Source: Geotoga petraea (GTDB lineage: Bacteria > Thermotogota > Thermotogae > Petrotogales > Petrotogaceae). From it: DNA of 64,000 nt. The stretch covers positions 310,913-374,912 of the forward strand of contig NZ_FMYV01000001.1 of assembly GCF_900102615.1 (NCBI RefSeq). Reading direction: 5' to 3'. Made by a program: the position numbers and the translations under genes. The notes beneath the pieces were generated by a model. That model saw nothing but the letters and a program-made list of their open reading frames with translations. It searched no databases and was not told the DNA's origin. Positions 15,805 to 21,561 of the stretch are shown here, one piece after another (position 1 is the stretch's first letter; each line of letters opens with the position of its first letter).

Positions 15805-17097
15805 GTGATTTTAAAAAATTGTACACTATTAACTGGGGCTATTGGTGAAGTGATAGAGAATGGTGCCGTATATGTTCAAGATGGTAAGGTTATAGATGTT
15901 GGTTCTGCAGAAAAAATTCTAGAGAAATACGGTGTTGAAGAAAAAAATATTAGGGATTTAAATAAAAAAATATTATTACCTGGGTTAACAAATCCATATA
16001 CAAGCTACTATATTAACGAATTAAATTTAAATAGCAAATTGAGAGATTCAAATTTACCTCCATATGAAAAATTTTCTAAAATAGTTAATTTTGCACTAAA
16101 TAAATCAGATGAAACTGAATTGTTCAAAGACATAATGACATTGGGAAGTTTCAAATCTTTGATAAATGGTGTAACTTCTTCAATTGTATCATTACCATAC
16201 AGTAAGAATATAACCTATGTTAAAGAAATTGCAGAACAAATAGGAGTAAGGGTAAAACCATCACCAATTTTACTAACAGAAAATGGAATTGCAAGGAATA
16301 TAAGAGACGATATCTTGGAGAACAGAGATATAAAATCTTTAACAATTTTGGGCGTTTGGGGGTTAGAAAAAGAAGATTATGACTTCCTTGAGAAATTTTT
16401 GAATGATGACAGAAGGTTGAGAATTGCCATCGTTGATTTTCAACAAGAAGAAAGATACGCTATGCTCAAACATGGTAAAGAACTAATGAACATTATAAGA
16501 GAAAATAATTTATTATCAAAAAAAGTTGATGTTATCTATGCAGGTAATGTCACTGCTGAAGTCATGGATTATTTTGCTTCTAAAGGAGTAAGGCTTATTA
16601 AAAGTGTAAGAACGGAATTAATGGAAATAAACACATCTCCTAATCTCTTGGATATGTTGGGAAGAGGTATGAAAGTTGCTATTGGTTCAGGCCTTATTGA
16701 TTATTCTTTATTCAATGAAGCCAAAACACTTTTAATAACAGAAAAATTCAACAACAAAGCTAAACACAATATTTTGTATAACGAAGTAGAAAGAACTATA
16801 TTTATGAGCAATTATCAGTTTTCCTCAGAAGAGTTTGATTTGCAATTAGGTCAAATTAGTTCTGGAAAAGAGGCAGATTTTACTATTTTAAGTTCAAGAA
16901 CAGGTGACTATATTTTCAACACTAATACACCTTTTACCGAAATATCTTTTAGAATGGGAAATGAAATAGAAGTTTCTGGAGCAGTTGTAGGTGGAGAAAT
17001 AAGCCTATGGGATAGGGAACCTCAAAAAGCGGACACAAAAGAAATAAGGAGAATACAAAAGAAAATAAATGATTACGTAAGAAATTTGGTTATATAA
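15805..17097 (+). CDS. Amidohydrolase-like protein lacking the usual metal ligands
   Basis: A 430-residue protein with the frame of the amidohydrolase superfamily: a small N-terminal beta domain (ILKNCTLLTGAIGEVIENGAV), the strand leading to PGLTNPYTS, a TIM-barrel-like middle and the C-terminal GKEADFTILS strand that rebuilds the beta domain. In active relatives the first motif is PGLxNxHxH and later blocks carry a His, a His/Glu pair and an Asp. Here PGLTNPYTS has no histidine, and the late block reads AIGSGLIDYSLFNEA without the usual Asp. It is probably a non-catalytic or differently acting homologue. Start GTG 15805 follows GGAGGT. A terminator follows. Confidence 0.75.
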   Translation: MILKNCTLLTGAIGEVIENGAVYVQDGKVIDVGSAEKILEKYGVEEKNIRDLNKKILLPGLTNPYTSYYINELNLNSKLRDSNLPPYEKFSKIVNFALNKSDETELFKDIMTLGSFKSLINGVTSSIVSLPYSKNITYVKEIAEQIGVRVKPSPILLTENGIARNIRDDILENRDIKSLTILGVWGLEKEDYDFLEKFLNDDRRLRIAIVDFQQEERYAMLKHGKELMNIIRENNLLSKKVDVIYAGNVTAEVMDYFASKGVRLIKSVRTELMEINTSPNLLDMLGRGMKVAIGSGLIDYSLFNEAKTLLITEKFNNKAKHNILYNEVERTIFMSNYQFSSEEFDLQLGQISSGKEADFTILSSRTGDYIFNTNTPFTEISFRMGNEIEVSGAVVGGEISLWDREPQKADTKEIRRIQKKINDYVRNLVI

Positions 17098-17125
17098 AAA
17101 AGCGAGCTTAAAGCTCGCTTTTTTA
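17096..17125. terminator. Bidirectional terminator between convergent operons
   Basis: AGCGAGCTT (17101-17109) and AAGCTCGCT (17111-17119) form a near-perfect palindrome flanked by A and T runs. It serves the amidohydrolase-like gene (+) and the membrane-protein operon (-). Confidence 0.9.
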
Positions 17126-18073
17126 TATAAGCTGAATACTCAGTCTGCTCATATCTGAAGAAATATTCAAATAGCAAGTATACTCTGCTTCTGAAAAATT
17201 TGCTGAAATATAAGAACCATCTTCTCTTTCAATTAACCCTTCAAAAGTTCTGAGATTAAGTTCACCTACTTGATTCAATACAAGGCCAACATTATCAGGT
17301 AACTTTACTGTTAAGGTAGATATTTCAAGGTCGGCATCTATTGAACTATCCTTTGTATTTGAAGGGATTAGCACTATTTTTGATGCTGTAGAATTAATAA
17401 TAACATTATCGGGAAAAGATTTTCTCATATCTATAAAAACATCAGAAACACTTAAATTCAATAAATAATTGTATTTTAAATCTTCTCTTATCCAAGAAGT
17501 CATTTTAGATCTTTCTGGAACTTTTATATTAGAAACTTTTAATTTGTTTTCAACCTTAAGCTCGTTGTCATTCCAATCAAAGGATCTTTTAAAAATATCT
17601 CCATCTGATAAAGAATCAATTTTAACGTTATAATTTTCAGATGAAGCAGAAACCAAAGATAACTTAGTCCAGTCAAGGTTGTAACTCAAATTATATTTAT
17701 TTCTATTAAATGGTACTTTGATTTTCATGTGGTCATCTTTTATCTTGTTACTTTTAATACTTAAAAATCTGTTAGATGTAAAAATTGAATATATGCCCCA
17801 GCCTATTAGGTAAGAAGCTATAAGTAAAAGAATTATTTGCCAAAATCCAATATTTTGTTTAAATATTCCAAAGGCATCTATCAAAAGAATTGAACCAAAA
17901 ATGATACTTCCTACCTTGTCACTTTTAGGATTTTTAAACACTTTTAACCCATCAGCTAAAAATATTACACCAAAAAATATTTCGACAGCTATTGAAAAGC
18001 TTATGGTTATTTCAAATACAACACCTAATAAAATAATTATACCAATTAATATTGAAACTAAAGCACCACTCAA
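17123..18073 (-). CDS. Membrane protein with LiaF-like N-terminal helices and soluble beta-rich domain
   Basis: A 316-residue protein. The first 110 residues form about four membrane helices with the glycine-rich, short-loop style of the LiaF/DUF5668 region. Residues about 115-316 are soluble, strand-rich and resemble the LiaF C-terminal or DUF4097 type of domain. It is the last gene of a four-gene operon and starts with TTG in a TTGA overlap, with GGAGGA upstream. LiaF proteins control envelope-stress signalling in Firmicutes; a similar role here is inferred from topology and neighbours, since no LiaRS-type kinase or regulator pair is nearby. Confidence 0.6.
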   Translation of the reverse strand: MSGALVSILIGIIILLGVVFEITISFSIAVEIFFGVIFLADGLKVFKNPKSDKVGSIIFGSILLIDAFGIFKQNIGFWQIILLLIASYLIGWGIYSIFTSNRFLSIKSNKIKDDHMKIKVPFNRNKYNLSYNLDWTKLSLVSASSENYNVKIDSLSDGDIFKRSFDWNDNELKVENKLKVSNIKVPERSKMTSWIREDLKYNYLLNLSVSDVFIDMRKSFPDNVIINSTASKIVLIPSNTKDSSIDADLEISTLTVKLPDNVGLVLNQVGELNLRTFEGLIEREDGSYISANFSEAEYTCYLNISSDMSRLSIQLI

Positions 18074-18582
18074 TTTTTTCTCCTCCTATCTGGTATTAAT
18101 GAGCTTATTCCAGAAGTCAAGAGGAATGAACCGATTAATACTAAAAGAAATTCCCAAAAATTGAAATTTAATCCAAATAATGATAATGAATCCAGAAAAA
18201 GAATGACTCCTGAAGTTAATCCAAAAAGTGTTCTTCTTACTATTTTTTTAATATCTTTTCTCTTTATAAAACTATTTCTTGCTACATGTATTGAACCTTT
18301 GGCTATTTTTCTTGCAAATTCTGGCATATCTTTTTCAGATTCTATTTCTTCTTCCGCATAATTTAGTTGCTCGTTTGCATAATGTATTTCATTTTGATCA
18401 GAACCATCAATTACTTTTCCATTTATATTTATTGATGGTTTAATTAATCCAATACCACTTGCAATTAATATTATTGATATGATAAGCTCTAAAATTCTCC
18501 AAAAACTTAAAGACAGGTCCAAGAAAACAGAAAGAAACAGCAATGTACCAACAACTATCATTATAACAGCAATTTTTCTCAT
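18070..18582 (-). CDS. Small membrane protein of the DUF2089/DUF4097 operon
   Basis: A 170-residue protein with two pairs of membrane helices (about residues 4-22 and 27-45, then 118-135 and 140-158) separated by a charged cytoplasmic linker that contains a coiled-coil-like stretch (NEQLNYAEEEIESEKD). No motif gives a function. The repeated two-helix unit with a central SFWRILELI / NFWEFLLVLIG pattern suggests an internal duplication, and the same FW...LLLI pattern appears in the next gene. It starts in an ATGA overlap with the DUF4097 gene. Confidence 0.65.
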   Translation of the reverse strand: MRKIAVIMIVVGTLLFLSVFLDLSLSFWRILELIISIILIASGIGLIKPSININGKVIDGSDQNEIHYANEQLNYAEEEIESEKDMPEFARKIAKGSIHVARNSFIKRKDIKKIVRRTLFGLTSGVILFLDSLSLFGLNFNFWEFLLVLIGSFLLTSGISSLIPDRRRKN

Positions 18583-19574
18583 TTGCTTGCACCTCTTTTT
18601 TTCAAAAATTTTTCGGCGTCATCCTTATTATATCCAATTTCTGATAGGAGTTCTATGGCAAAATCATAAGATATTTTTTCTTGCTTAAAAAGTTCCAATA
18701 TTTTCTTTTCTTCTTGTGTTAAAAAATCATCAGAAATAATTTTTTCTTCAGTATTAGTAGAGTTAAAATGTTTTTCATCATTCTTTTGTTTTGTAAAGTG
18801 TTTAGATTCTATACCTCGGATCTTTAGGTTACCTGTAATTACTTTAACAACCATTCTCCTTTTTTCAAAAGATAACTCAACATCTTGTTTTTCTATGAGA
18901 TCTACATTGGATTTTAAGGTTGACGAATAAGGAGTTAATTTTTTTGTTATGTAAATAGGTTCTTTACCACAAATATTAACCATAGCCTCACCTGTAATTA
19001 CTGTAATTTTCATCAAATCAAAGTCAGAATTCATTTTACTTATATCTAAATTACCTGTTATTAGGTGGCAATCAATATTTTGTATTTTAGAATCCTCATA
19101 TTTTATATTACCTGTTGTAACCGATATTTCATCATTTAAAAAGTCAGAGTTTTCAGAAAGAAAATTTCCTGTTATTAATTTTGATTTATGGTTTTTTATC
19201 TTAGATTTTTTAATCCTCGTATTTCCAGTAATTATCTTATTTTCAAAATAATTTAAATTTACATCTTTAATGTTCACGTCACCTTGAACAAAATTGACTT
19301 TTAATTCTTCAAAATTATCGGCCAAATATAGGTTAACATGTAAAGTTTTATTAGATATAAACCCAAAAAACTTGTTGAGAAAAGAATCGTTACTTCTTGA
19401 AAATCTTATAAAATAGCCATCTTCTCCAATTTTTCCGTGTGGGAAACCTTCTTCAAGATCTTCTTCTAATTCAAAATATGATTTTTCTGATTTTGTGACA
19501 TTTAACTTTATTTCATCATGTTTTGATTCAATGTTTATTCTTTTTATTCCTTCTAAATTAATAGTTTTAGACAT
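18579..19574 (-). CDS. DUF4097-type beta-helix protein
   Basis: A 331-residue protein whose middle (about residues 75-250) is a series of short strands that repeat a TGN signature about every 20 residues: IITGNT, LITGNF, VTTGNI, LITGNL, VITGEA, VITGNL. That is the signature of DUF4097 (YvlB-like) right-handed beta-helix proteins. The C-terminus (about 285-331) is a helical SHOCT/UBA-like module (LTQEEKKILELFKQEKIS) that resembles the tail of the DUF2089 regulator next door. No signal peptide is present, so it is probably cytoplasmic or membrane-associated through partners. RBS AGGGGG. Confidence 0.75.
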   Translation of the reverse strand: MSKTINLEGIKRINIESKHDEIKLNVTKSEKSYFELEEDLEEGFPHGKIGEDGYFIRFSRSNDSFLNKFFGFISNKTLHVNLYLADNFEELKVNFVQGDVNIKDVNLNYFENKIITGNTRIKKSKIKNHKSKLITGNFLSENSDFLNDEISVTTGNIKYEDSKIQNIDCHLITGNLDISKMNSDFDLMKITVITGEAMVNICGKEPIYITKKLTPYSSTLKSNVDLIEKQDVELSFEKRRMVVKVITGNLKIRGIESKHFTKQKNDEKHFNSTNTEEKIISDDFLTQEEKKILELFKQEKISYDFAIELLSEIGYNKDDAEKFLKKRGASK

Positions 19575-19650
19575 TTTAAAATCCCCCTTATTTTAAAATT
19601 ATTAATTGTCCCTCATATTTTTGGTTACTTTATCTTATTGTTGATGAAGT

Positions 19651-20025
19651 TTAGTTATTTTTGTATTTTTTCAATATGGTTTTAGCTTCTTCAGGAGTTA
19701 TTTCTCCTTTTTCAATTTTTTCTAAAATTTCCATAGTTTTTTTTCGGTTATCCTCTTCAGATTCATATCCTAATGCTTTTACCAATTCTTCTAATCTGGC
19801 TTTAGCTGTTGGATATGAAATACTTAATTCTTTTTGAAGCTCAGATAAATTTCCTCTGTTTTTTATAAAAATCTTCAAAAATATTAGTTGTTCGTCTGTT
19901 AATTGTGCGAATTCTTCTATTTGGAAATTCCCGGTAATTTCAGTTGCGCATTTTTCACATTTATACTTCTGAATGTTTAACCTTCCCCCGCAAACTGGAC
20001 AGGTAGTTAATCTTCTTTTATACAT
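19651..20025 (-). CDS. DUF2089-type zinc-ribbon HTH regulator
   Basis: A 124-residue protein of three parts: a zinc ribbon (CPVCGGRL and CEKC), a helix-turn-helix (LSELQKELSISYPTAKARLEEL) and a short C-terminal helical pair (KIEKGEITPEEAKTILKKY). DUF2089 proteins are probable transcription regulators usually encoded with DUF4097 and membrane proteins, as here. The ATG at 20023-20025 is chosen because GAGGAGG lies at 6-base spacing; the longer frame to 20112 would run across the ribosome binding site and promoter. As first gene of the operon it may control its own promoter. Confidence 0.85.
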   Translation of the reverse strand: MYKRRLTTCPVCGGRLNIQKYKCEKCATEITGNFQIEEFAQLTDEQLIFLKIFIKNRGNLSELQKELSISYPTAKARLEELVKALGYESEEDNRKKTMEILEKIEKGEITPEEAKTILKKYKNN

Positions 20026-20100
20026 TTTAATCCTCCTCATATATTTAATTTTTATATTAAAAATATTGAATAAAATACAAAAATATTTAATCTCAAAAAA

Positions 20101-20129
20101 ATTATACAACATAAAATTAAAAATGTCAA
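20101..20129 (-). promoter_or_regulatory. Perfect consensus promoter of the DUF2089 operon
   Basis: On the - strand TTGACA (20129-20124) and TATAAT (20106-20101) are exactly 17 bases apart. Transcription should start near 20094, giving a leader of about 70 bases before the ATG at 20025. The surrounding A/T-rich DNA has repeated AAATTAAAA words that could be regulator sites. Confidence 0.9.
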
Positions 20130-20280: not shown

Positions 20281-21561
20281 ATGACAAATAAGTTTAACGA
20301 ACTGAAAAATAAAGTAATATATGAAATATTTCTAAGAAATTATTCAAAATCTGGAACATTTAACGAAGTTTACTGCGACCTTGAAAGAATTAAAAAACTT
20401 GGGGTAGATATTATTTGGTTTATGCCTTTTTACCCTATAGGAAAAAAGAATAGAAAAGGTAATTATGGATCTCCTTATTCTATTTCAAAGTACGACGAAA
20501 TATCTTATGAATATGGAGGTATAGATCAATTCAAAAAAATAATCAAAAAATCAAAAGAACTTGGTATGCAAGTTATGATAGATATAGTTTTTAATCATAC
20601 TTCGAATGATTCATATATTTCAAAAAATCATAAAGATTGGTTTATTTTGAATGATGATGGGGATTTTTTTAGGAAGGAGCCAGATTGGTTTGATATAGCT
20701 GATTTGAATTTTAAAAATAGTGAATTGTGGGATTATTTGATAAATATTTTAAAATTTTGGAAAGATATTGGTGTCGAAGGATTTAGATGTGATGTAGCCT
20801 CTCTTATTCCTTTAAATTTTTGGGAAAAGGCCAGAAGTCAAGTTGATCCAGAAAAAAAACTTATATGGTTGGCCGAAAGTATGGAACCAGAGTATCTACG
20901 GGCTCTTAGAAAAGAGGGATATGATGTAGTTTCTGATACAGAATTATATAGAGTTTTTGATTATACTTACGATTATGATGGATACGAAAAAATACATAAA
21001 TATTTTAAAGGTGAAATAGAATTATCTGGTATAGTAGAATATATAAAAACACAACAAACAATTTACCCAAGGGAATCTTTGAAGATGAGGTTTTTAGAAA
21101 ATCACGACAAACCCAGAATAGCAAGTTTAATTTCTTCCAAACAGAGATTAAAGAATTGGACGACATTTTATATGACTTTACCTGGATCTTCCTTAATTTA
21201 TGCTGGACAGGAAATAAAAGATGATAAGTACCCAGATTTATTTGAAAAAACGTCTATAAATTGGGATGATGGAGATTACGAATTTTTAAATTTTATAAAA
21301 AAAATAATAGTTATTTCAAAAGAAATTAAAGCTGAATCAAAATATTTTGAAATCAATGAAGTTAAAAAAGGTGTTGTAGAAGTTAAATGGACTGGAGAAA
21401 AATATGATTATCTTATTATTTTGAATTTAGAAGAAAAATATGGAAATATTTTTTTAAATAATTTTTATGAAGGATATGATATGATTAATAAAGAAAAAAT
21501 TAAATTAAATAAAAAATATAAATTACAAAAAGAACCACTGATTATAAAGTCTATAAAATAG
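20281..21561 (+). CDS. GH13-family alpha-glucan-acting enzyme
   Basis: A 426-residue alpha-amylase-superfamily protein. The four conserved regions are visible: MIDIVFNHT, GFRCDVASL with the nucleophile Asp, LAESM with the acid/base Glu, and FLENHDKPR with the transition-state Asp. The barrel begins with VIYEIFLRNYSKSGTF and there is a short C-terminal beta domain. No signal peptide, so it acts in the cytoplasm, probably on imported maltooligosaccharides or related glucosides. Substrate cannot be fixed from motifs alone. AAAGGAGG precedes the ATG. The 255-base region upstream is A/T-rich and holds the divergent DUF2089 promoter. Confidence 0.92.
   Translation: MTNKFNELKNKVIYEIFLRNYSKSGTFNEVYCDLERIKKLGVDIIWFMPFYPIGKKNRKGNYGSPYSISKYDEISYEYGGIDQFKKIIKKSKELGMQVMIDIVFNHTSNDSYISKNHKDWFILNDDGDFFRKEPDWFDIADLNFKNSELWDYLINILKFWKDIGVEGFRCDVASLIPLNFWEKARSQVDPEKKLIWLAESMEPEYLRALRKEGYDVVSDTELYRVFDYTYDYDGYEKIHKYFKGEIELSGIVEYIKTQQTIYPRESLKMRFLENHDKPRIASLISSKQRLKNWTTFYMTLPGSSLIYAGQEIKDDKYPDLFEKTSINWDDGDYEFLNFIKKIIVISKEIKAESKYFEINEVKKGVVEVKWTGEKYDYLIILNLEEKYGNIFLNNFYEGYDMINKEKIKLNKKYKLQKEPLIIKSIK

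Follow-up and report, generated by a model that had tools for sequence, protein, structure and literature searches.

A candidate DUF2089-autoregulated, PspA-free membrane-stress operon in Geotoga petraea

We consider the chances even that a four-gene operon of Geotoga petraea is a PspA-free, lia/PSP-like membrane-stress operon, in which the regulator DUF2089 would act as a one-component autoregulator with a single target and a toastrack protein would link DUF2089 to the membrane proteins. The operon belongs to a published, predicted kind, the DUF2089-toastrack operons. New in the present analysis are the LiaF-like identity of the fourth gene product (MP4), the near-universal presence of DUF2089 in a mostly PspA-free phylum, the linkage to exporters and exact candidate operators. 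If the proposal is true, a predicted analogue of the phage shock protein (PSP) system becomes a defined regulator whose target is defined as well, and Thermotogota acquire a candidate membrane-stress circuit.

The operon and its proteins

The window is a 64,000-nt stretch of G. petraea DNA (GCF_900102615.1, NZ_FMYV01000001.1, 310,913-374,912), and all positions follow its numbering. The operon occupies the minus strand and consists of the genes for DUF2089, DUF4097, MP3 and MP4, with a promoter on the 5' side and a terminator on the 3' side:

20101..20129, minus strand: core promoter TTGACA-17-TATAAT, an exact match and one of 27 in the genome
20107..20123, minus strand: spacer of 17 bp, TTTTTAATTTTATGTTG, which may form part of a regulator site, ranked first of 27 by the spacer model
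20032-20037, minus strand: ribosome-binding site AGGAGG of the DUF2089 gene
19651..20025, minus strand: DUF2089 regulator, 124 aa, with zinc ribbon (residues 9-40), HTH (42-88) and SHOCT-like helices (98-123), three domains above the Pfam cut-offs
18579..19574, minus strand: DUF4097 toastrack beta-helix protein, 331 aa, from Pfam, fold and hhalign
18070..18582, minus strand: MP3, LiaI-LiaF-TM-like membrane protein of 170 aa with two homologous helix pairs, from a weak LiaF-TM match and half-to-half similarity
17123..18073, minus strand: MP4, 316 aa, TTG start, four transmembrane helices and a C-terminal toastrack domain, from the 4QRK match, AlphaFold and Foldseek
17090..17130, minus strand: intrinsic terminator, stem GCGAGC/GCTCGC with A/T tracts (-23.8 kcal/mol, z -8.7)

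A sequence-only reading of this DNA had described a four-gene operon behind a perfect promoter, and this outline is correct: the operon is real and is closed by the terminator, which is probably bidirectional and was absent from that reading. The MP3 gene overlaps the upstream DUF4097 gene by 4 nt, as the MP4 gene does the MP3 gene, and no Rfam RNA was found in the operon. An alpha-amylase-family gene (20281-21561, plus strand) diverges from the operon, and in six related genomes the DUF2089 locus has an alpha-amylase-family homologue beside DUF2089.

The assignment of the first gene product as a zinc-ribbon HTH regulator holds, with matches to PF09862 (1e-21), the zinc ribbon PF22747 (2.2e-13) and the SHOCT-like PF22746 (4.3e-8); a sequence search returned no solved structure that convincingly resembles it. 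The DUF4097 identity of the second product is likewise confirmed by PF13349 (E=3.4e-9), an AlphaFold model (pLDDT 84.6) and Foldseek matches to toastrack structures. Six TGN repeats had been counted in this protein; six TG repeats are present, but only five of them are TGN and the sixth is TGE.

What do the regulator and the toastrack protein have in common? A C-terminal helical module had been noticed in both, and hhalign aligns the DUF2089 C-terminus with the C-terminal 70 residues of the DUF4097 protein (probability 95, E=3.9e-8) and finds no match to the rest of that protein (0.1). The SHOCT-like helices of the DUF4097 protein lie at its C-terminus, at about residues 287-325. Furthermore, the Pfam family SHOCT-like_DUF2089-C matches 5 of the 18 members of the DUF4097 alignment, as well as additional small proteins that DUF2089 operons of other phyla encode, while on the window's own DUF4097 protein it scores 14 bits, below the cut-off of 27.

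MP3 and MP4 had been described as two small membrane proteins with duplicated helix pairs. The duplication stands for MP3, whose halves align with each other at a score that 0 of 1000 shuffles reach, and the helices of MP3 and MP4 match half to half. MP4, however, is not small, as its four transmembrane helices are followed by a toastrack domain of about 200 aa. Its last 200 residues match PDB 4QRK in a profile comparison (E=1.4e-13), and its AlphaFold model (pLDDT 78.9) contains four helices and then a beta-rich/beta-helix domain for which Foldseek returns 4qrk (5.9e-13, TMt 0.75). 4QRK is a toastrack example named in the accessible text of Ravi et al. 2024 (PMC11237479). The LiaF-TM family scores 18.4 bits on MP3 and 13.8 bits on MP4, both below the cut-off of 27, and its best match in relatives is weak (0.0012); Pfam finds no PspC domain in the operon proteins. 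Given the MP4 toastrack domain and the similarity of the MP3 and MP4 helices, two proteins of the operon carry a toastrack domain and two contain a LiaI/LiaF-type membrane unit. The architecture of MP4, as modelled, is LiaF-like, with a LiaI/LiaF-type membrane unit fused to a toastrack domain.

The promoter and candidate operators in relatives

The exact TTGACA-17-TATAAT promoter is confirmed on the minus strand at 20129-20101, with a 17-bp spacer. The genome contains 27 exact consensus promoters versus 3 matches to the reversed pattern, so such promoters are real but not rare. Among those followed by a recognizable gene are the promoters of rpmG, rpmF-plsX, rpsO, rsmH, acpP, trpS, infC and an hsp20 gene (names read from translations). 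The argument that a perfect promoter usually needs a repressor therefore fails: a perfect promoter does not imply a repressor, because many of the 27 drive housekeeping genes, rpmG, rpmF-plsX, rpsO, acpP, trpS and infC among them.

The DUF2089 promoters nevertheless share features across the phylum. Near-consensus promoters occur at 75% of Thermotogota DUF2089 loci versus 30% of other operon starts, and the spacer is 17 bp in 48 of 54 promoters, a length that contrasts with the long spacers on which MerR-type activators depend. Held-out spacer models, trained either on other families or on different genera of the window's family, rank the window promoter first among the 27 perfect promoters. 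Two of the 11 same-family loci outside the Marinitoga-like genus (L045 and L046) have no good promoter beside DUF2089.

Two other genera carry candidate operators. In the seven genomes of genus g4, called Marinitoga-like because its gene neighbours match the Marinitoga lauensis locus L122, a 33-bp palindrome, ATACCACTTGACTTTTTTAAAGTTAAGTGGTAT, spans -35 to -10 and encloses the core promoter. All 36 columns over this palindrome are conserved in at least six of the seven genomes versus 19 of 74 columns outside it, and its 27-bp core has exactly one site per genome in 7 of 7, with none for the reversed-pattern control. The Mesotoga-like genus g12 has a different palindrome, CTTAAATATATTTAAG, located just upstream of -35, with one site per genome in 8 of 10 genomes; these are all eight readable ones, as the remaining two have the site masked or truncated at a contig end. 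The two genera thus have palindromes that differ in both sequence and position. For a strictly local autoregulator one expects just this pattern, with a single site in each genome, located at the promoter of the regulator itself, and these single-copy palindromes are exact, testable candidate binding sites.

The comparison of orthologous intergenic regions, which had been suggested as a check, yielded a conserved spacer and single-copy palindromes in two other genera, but no significant palindrome in the window. Because its own genus is sampled by one genome and no palindrome in it rises above chance, the claim for the window promoter rests on the spacer motif and homology. The inverted repeats present in the intergenic region of the window are AT-rich and do not exceed chance expectation. 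Direct repeats pooled over the DUF2089 promoters give a marginal 21-bp excess (8 promoters versus 2.0 expected, z 3.5, 31 lags), and the window promoter is not among the 8. As a possible second target in the same genome, a near-identical promoter with one mismatch (contig C5, 60413-60441) precedes a 124-aa protein and an acylphosphatase-like gene; this look-alike is likely due to chance, as the homologues of the gene in relatives do not share it.

Control of the operon by DUF2089

In our account, the identification of DUF2089 as the binding protein is inferred, as are the direction of regulation, the nature of the membrane signal and the contacts between the proteins. DUF2089 would bind its own promoter and control only this operon. 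The DUF4097 toastrack protein, presumably cytosolic, would join DUF2089 to the LiaI/LiaF-type MP3 and MP4 through the SHOCT-like helices. A disturbance of the membrane may then shift this complex and alter DUF2089 occupancy at the promoter. The likelier sign would be repression that overlaps the core promoter and is relieved by stress, and it is favoured by the Marinitoga-like site over -35 to -10 together with the optimal 17-bp spacing. Given the conserved control sequences at DUF2089 promoters, the operon is probably adjusted through DUF2089 alone. The earlier suggestion that DUF2089 may repress its own operon thus retains its autoregulatory part on comparative grounds, from the conserved spacer and the single-copy palindromes of two other genera, but not on the perfect-promoter argument.

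Several observations count against the proposal: no palindrome in the window exceeds chance, the palindromes of the two genera differ, and two same-family loci have no good promoter beside DUF2089. Against repression in particular, the Mesotoga-like site is upstream of -35, which is the place of an activator or an UP element and not of a repressor, and its position suggests that activation would also suit. Accounts in which DUF2089 is an activator that binds near the promoter and is switched on by membrane stress draw on this unique palindrome, located where class I/II activators bind, and on the general behaviour of lia-type systems, which stress switches on. The promoters are, however, already near consensus with 17-bp spacers, and DUF2089 bound to the Marinitoga-like palindrome would block polymerase, as this palindrome covers both -35 and -10. 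We regard activation as unlikely. Repression is about twice as likely as activation, and the remaining weight falls on no direct control or on another regulator.

The 27 perfect promoters, many at housekeeping genes, and the lack of a palindrome in the window are compatible with a strong constitutive promoter, with DUF2089 acting elsewhere or in a complex and the spacer conservation reflecting an intrinsic promoter property. This account is unlikely, given that the spacer motif sets the window promoter apart from the other 26 and that the palindromes are unique to DUF2089 promoters in two genera. It is also improbable that the promoter element is the site of a regulator other than DUF2089, as the difference between the elements of the two genera might suggest, because a site found once per genome suggests a local regulator, and the HTH protein encoded directly downstream of it is DUF2089.

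Relation to known systems and stress function

Ravi et al. 2024 (PMC11237479) describe, in the accessible text, four-gene contexts of DUF2089 (zinc ribbon, HTH, SHOCT-like), toastrack and LiaI-LiaF-TM proteins, and present the DUF2089-toastrack contexts as possible PSP analogues with a predicted lia-like role in membrane stress. The window operon resembles these contexts in its zinc ribbon-HTH-SHOCT-like regulator, its toastrack protein and its LiaI-LiaF-TM-type proteins: all three DUF2089 domains are present, the toastrack gene is adjacent, and the LiaI-LiaF-TM/B-box/PspC-type partner is recognizable by architecture (four helices plus toastrack), although weak by Pfam score. It differs in that it has two membrane proteins, one of them fused to toastrack, and that its relatives include exporter-linked variants. 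The same text gives no promoter or operator for the DUF2089 contexts. The operon had been called a response not yet described in this phylum, which is narrowly correct, in that the main text of neither Ravi et al. nor another PSP survey contains Thermotogota by name ('Thermotog...'); the operon type itself is published (PMC11237479). The accessible literature that names the family mentions DUF2089 solely as a family designation or as a prediction, and no experimental work on a DUF2089 protein was found there.

With the B. subtilis liaIH-liaGFSR and Enterococcus LiaFSR-LiaX systems, in which LiaF and LiaG carry toastrack domains, the operon shares LiaI-LiaF-TM helices and toastrack domains. Unlike these systems, it encodes no histidine kinase or response regulator, as no kinase or receiver domain was found in it, and the genome has no match to PspA/LiaH (PspA/IM30, PF04012), which also separates it from PSP proper. 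B. subtilis yvlABCD similarly places a toastrack-SHOCT-like protein (YvlB) beside membrane proteins, including the PspC protein YvlC, whereas the window operon has its own regulator, DUF2089, and no PspC domain was found in it.

DUF2089 is present in 98 of 103 Thermotogota genomes, covering all 38 genera, and PspA (PF04012) exceeds the cut-off in 7 of the 103, all of genus g12. The gene order of the operon is similar across the window's family and order, and across phyla DUF2089 is the first gene of runs that also encode small membrane proteins and proteins of the toastrack and SHOCT-like types. In 29 of 109 DUF2089 loci these runs include exporters, which belong to three superfamilies (MFS, MATE and ABC) and account for 41 of 304 run genes versus 22 of 731 background genes; this linkage is supportive but not precise, because a few genomes entered the count twice and most of the ABC cases come from related Acholeplasmataceae. 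From the published PSP/lia family assignment and the exporter linkage, an envelope-stress role of the operon is plausible by analogy.

The exporters, of MFS_3, MATE or ABC type, could also indicate that the operon serves the sensing and export of membrane-active drugs or bacteriocins and not general envelope stress, as could the DUF2089-family genes reported in leaderless bacteriocin clusters in the accessible text of two papers (PMC7332713, PMC10707071). Such a specialized role is nonetheless unlikely: neither the window operon nor the operons of its family contain an exporter, many of the ABC cases are from related Acholeplasmataceae, and the data fit general membrane stress as well. Beyond the single operon, we suggest more tentatively, at less than an even chance, that DUF2089-toastrack-LiaF may be the general PspA-independent membrane-stress system of Thermotogota, namely, a strictly local one-component autoregulator with one target per genome that SHOCT-like helices connect to membrane proteins and that in other lineages is coupled to different exporter superfamilies.

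Several neighbouring arrangements were also observed. In four Marinitoga-like loci (L047, L051, L053 and L055), the operon has no LiaF-like genes and instead encodes a protein of ~870 aa with one predicted transmembrane segment, and these genomes carry a second DUF2089 paralogue elsewhere. In loci L148, L153-L160, L166 and L170, mostly from the wall-less Acholeplasmataceae, DUF2089 and a SHOCT-like protein are followed by a pair of ABC half-exporters, an arrangement that recurs in these bacteria. On contig C1 (L065:6901-7941), the G. petraea genome has a further, stand-alone DUF4097 gene, with a strong match (1.7e-38) and a 347-aa product, beside a cluster of ABC transporter genes. On contig C9 (L066:7940-10741), consecutive genes for a HisKA_3 histidine kinase, a response regulator of the LuxR type and a DUF4097 protein that probably carries a signal peptide form a second, two-component, lia-like toastrack cluster.
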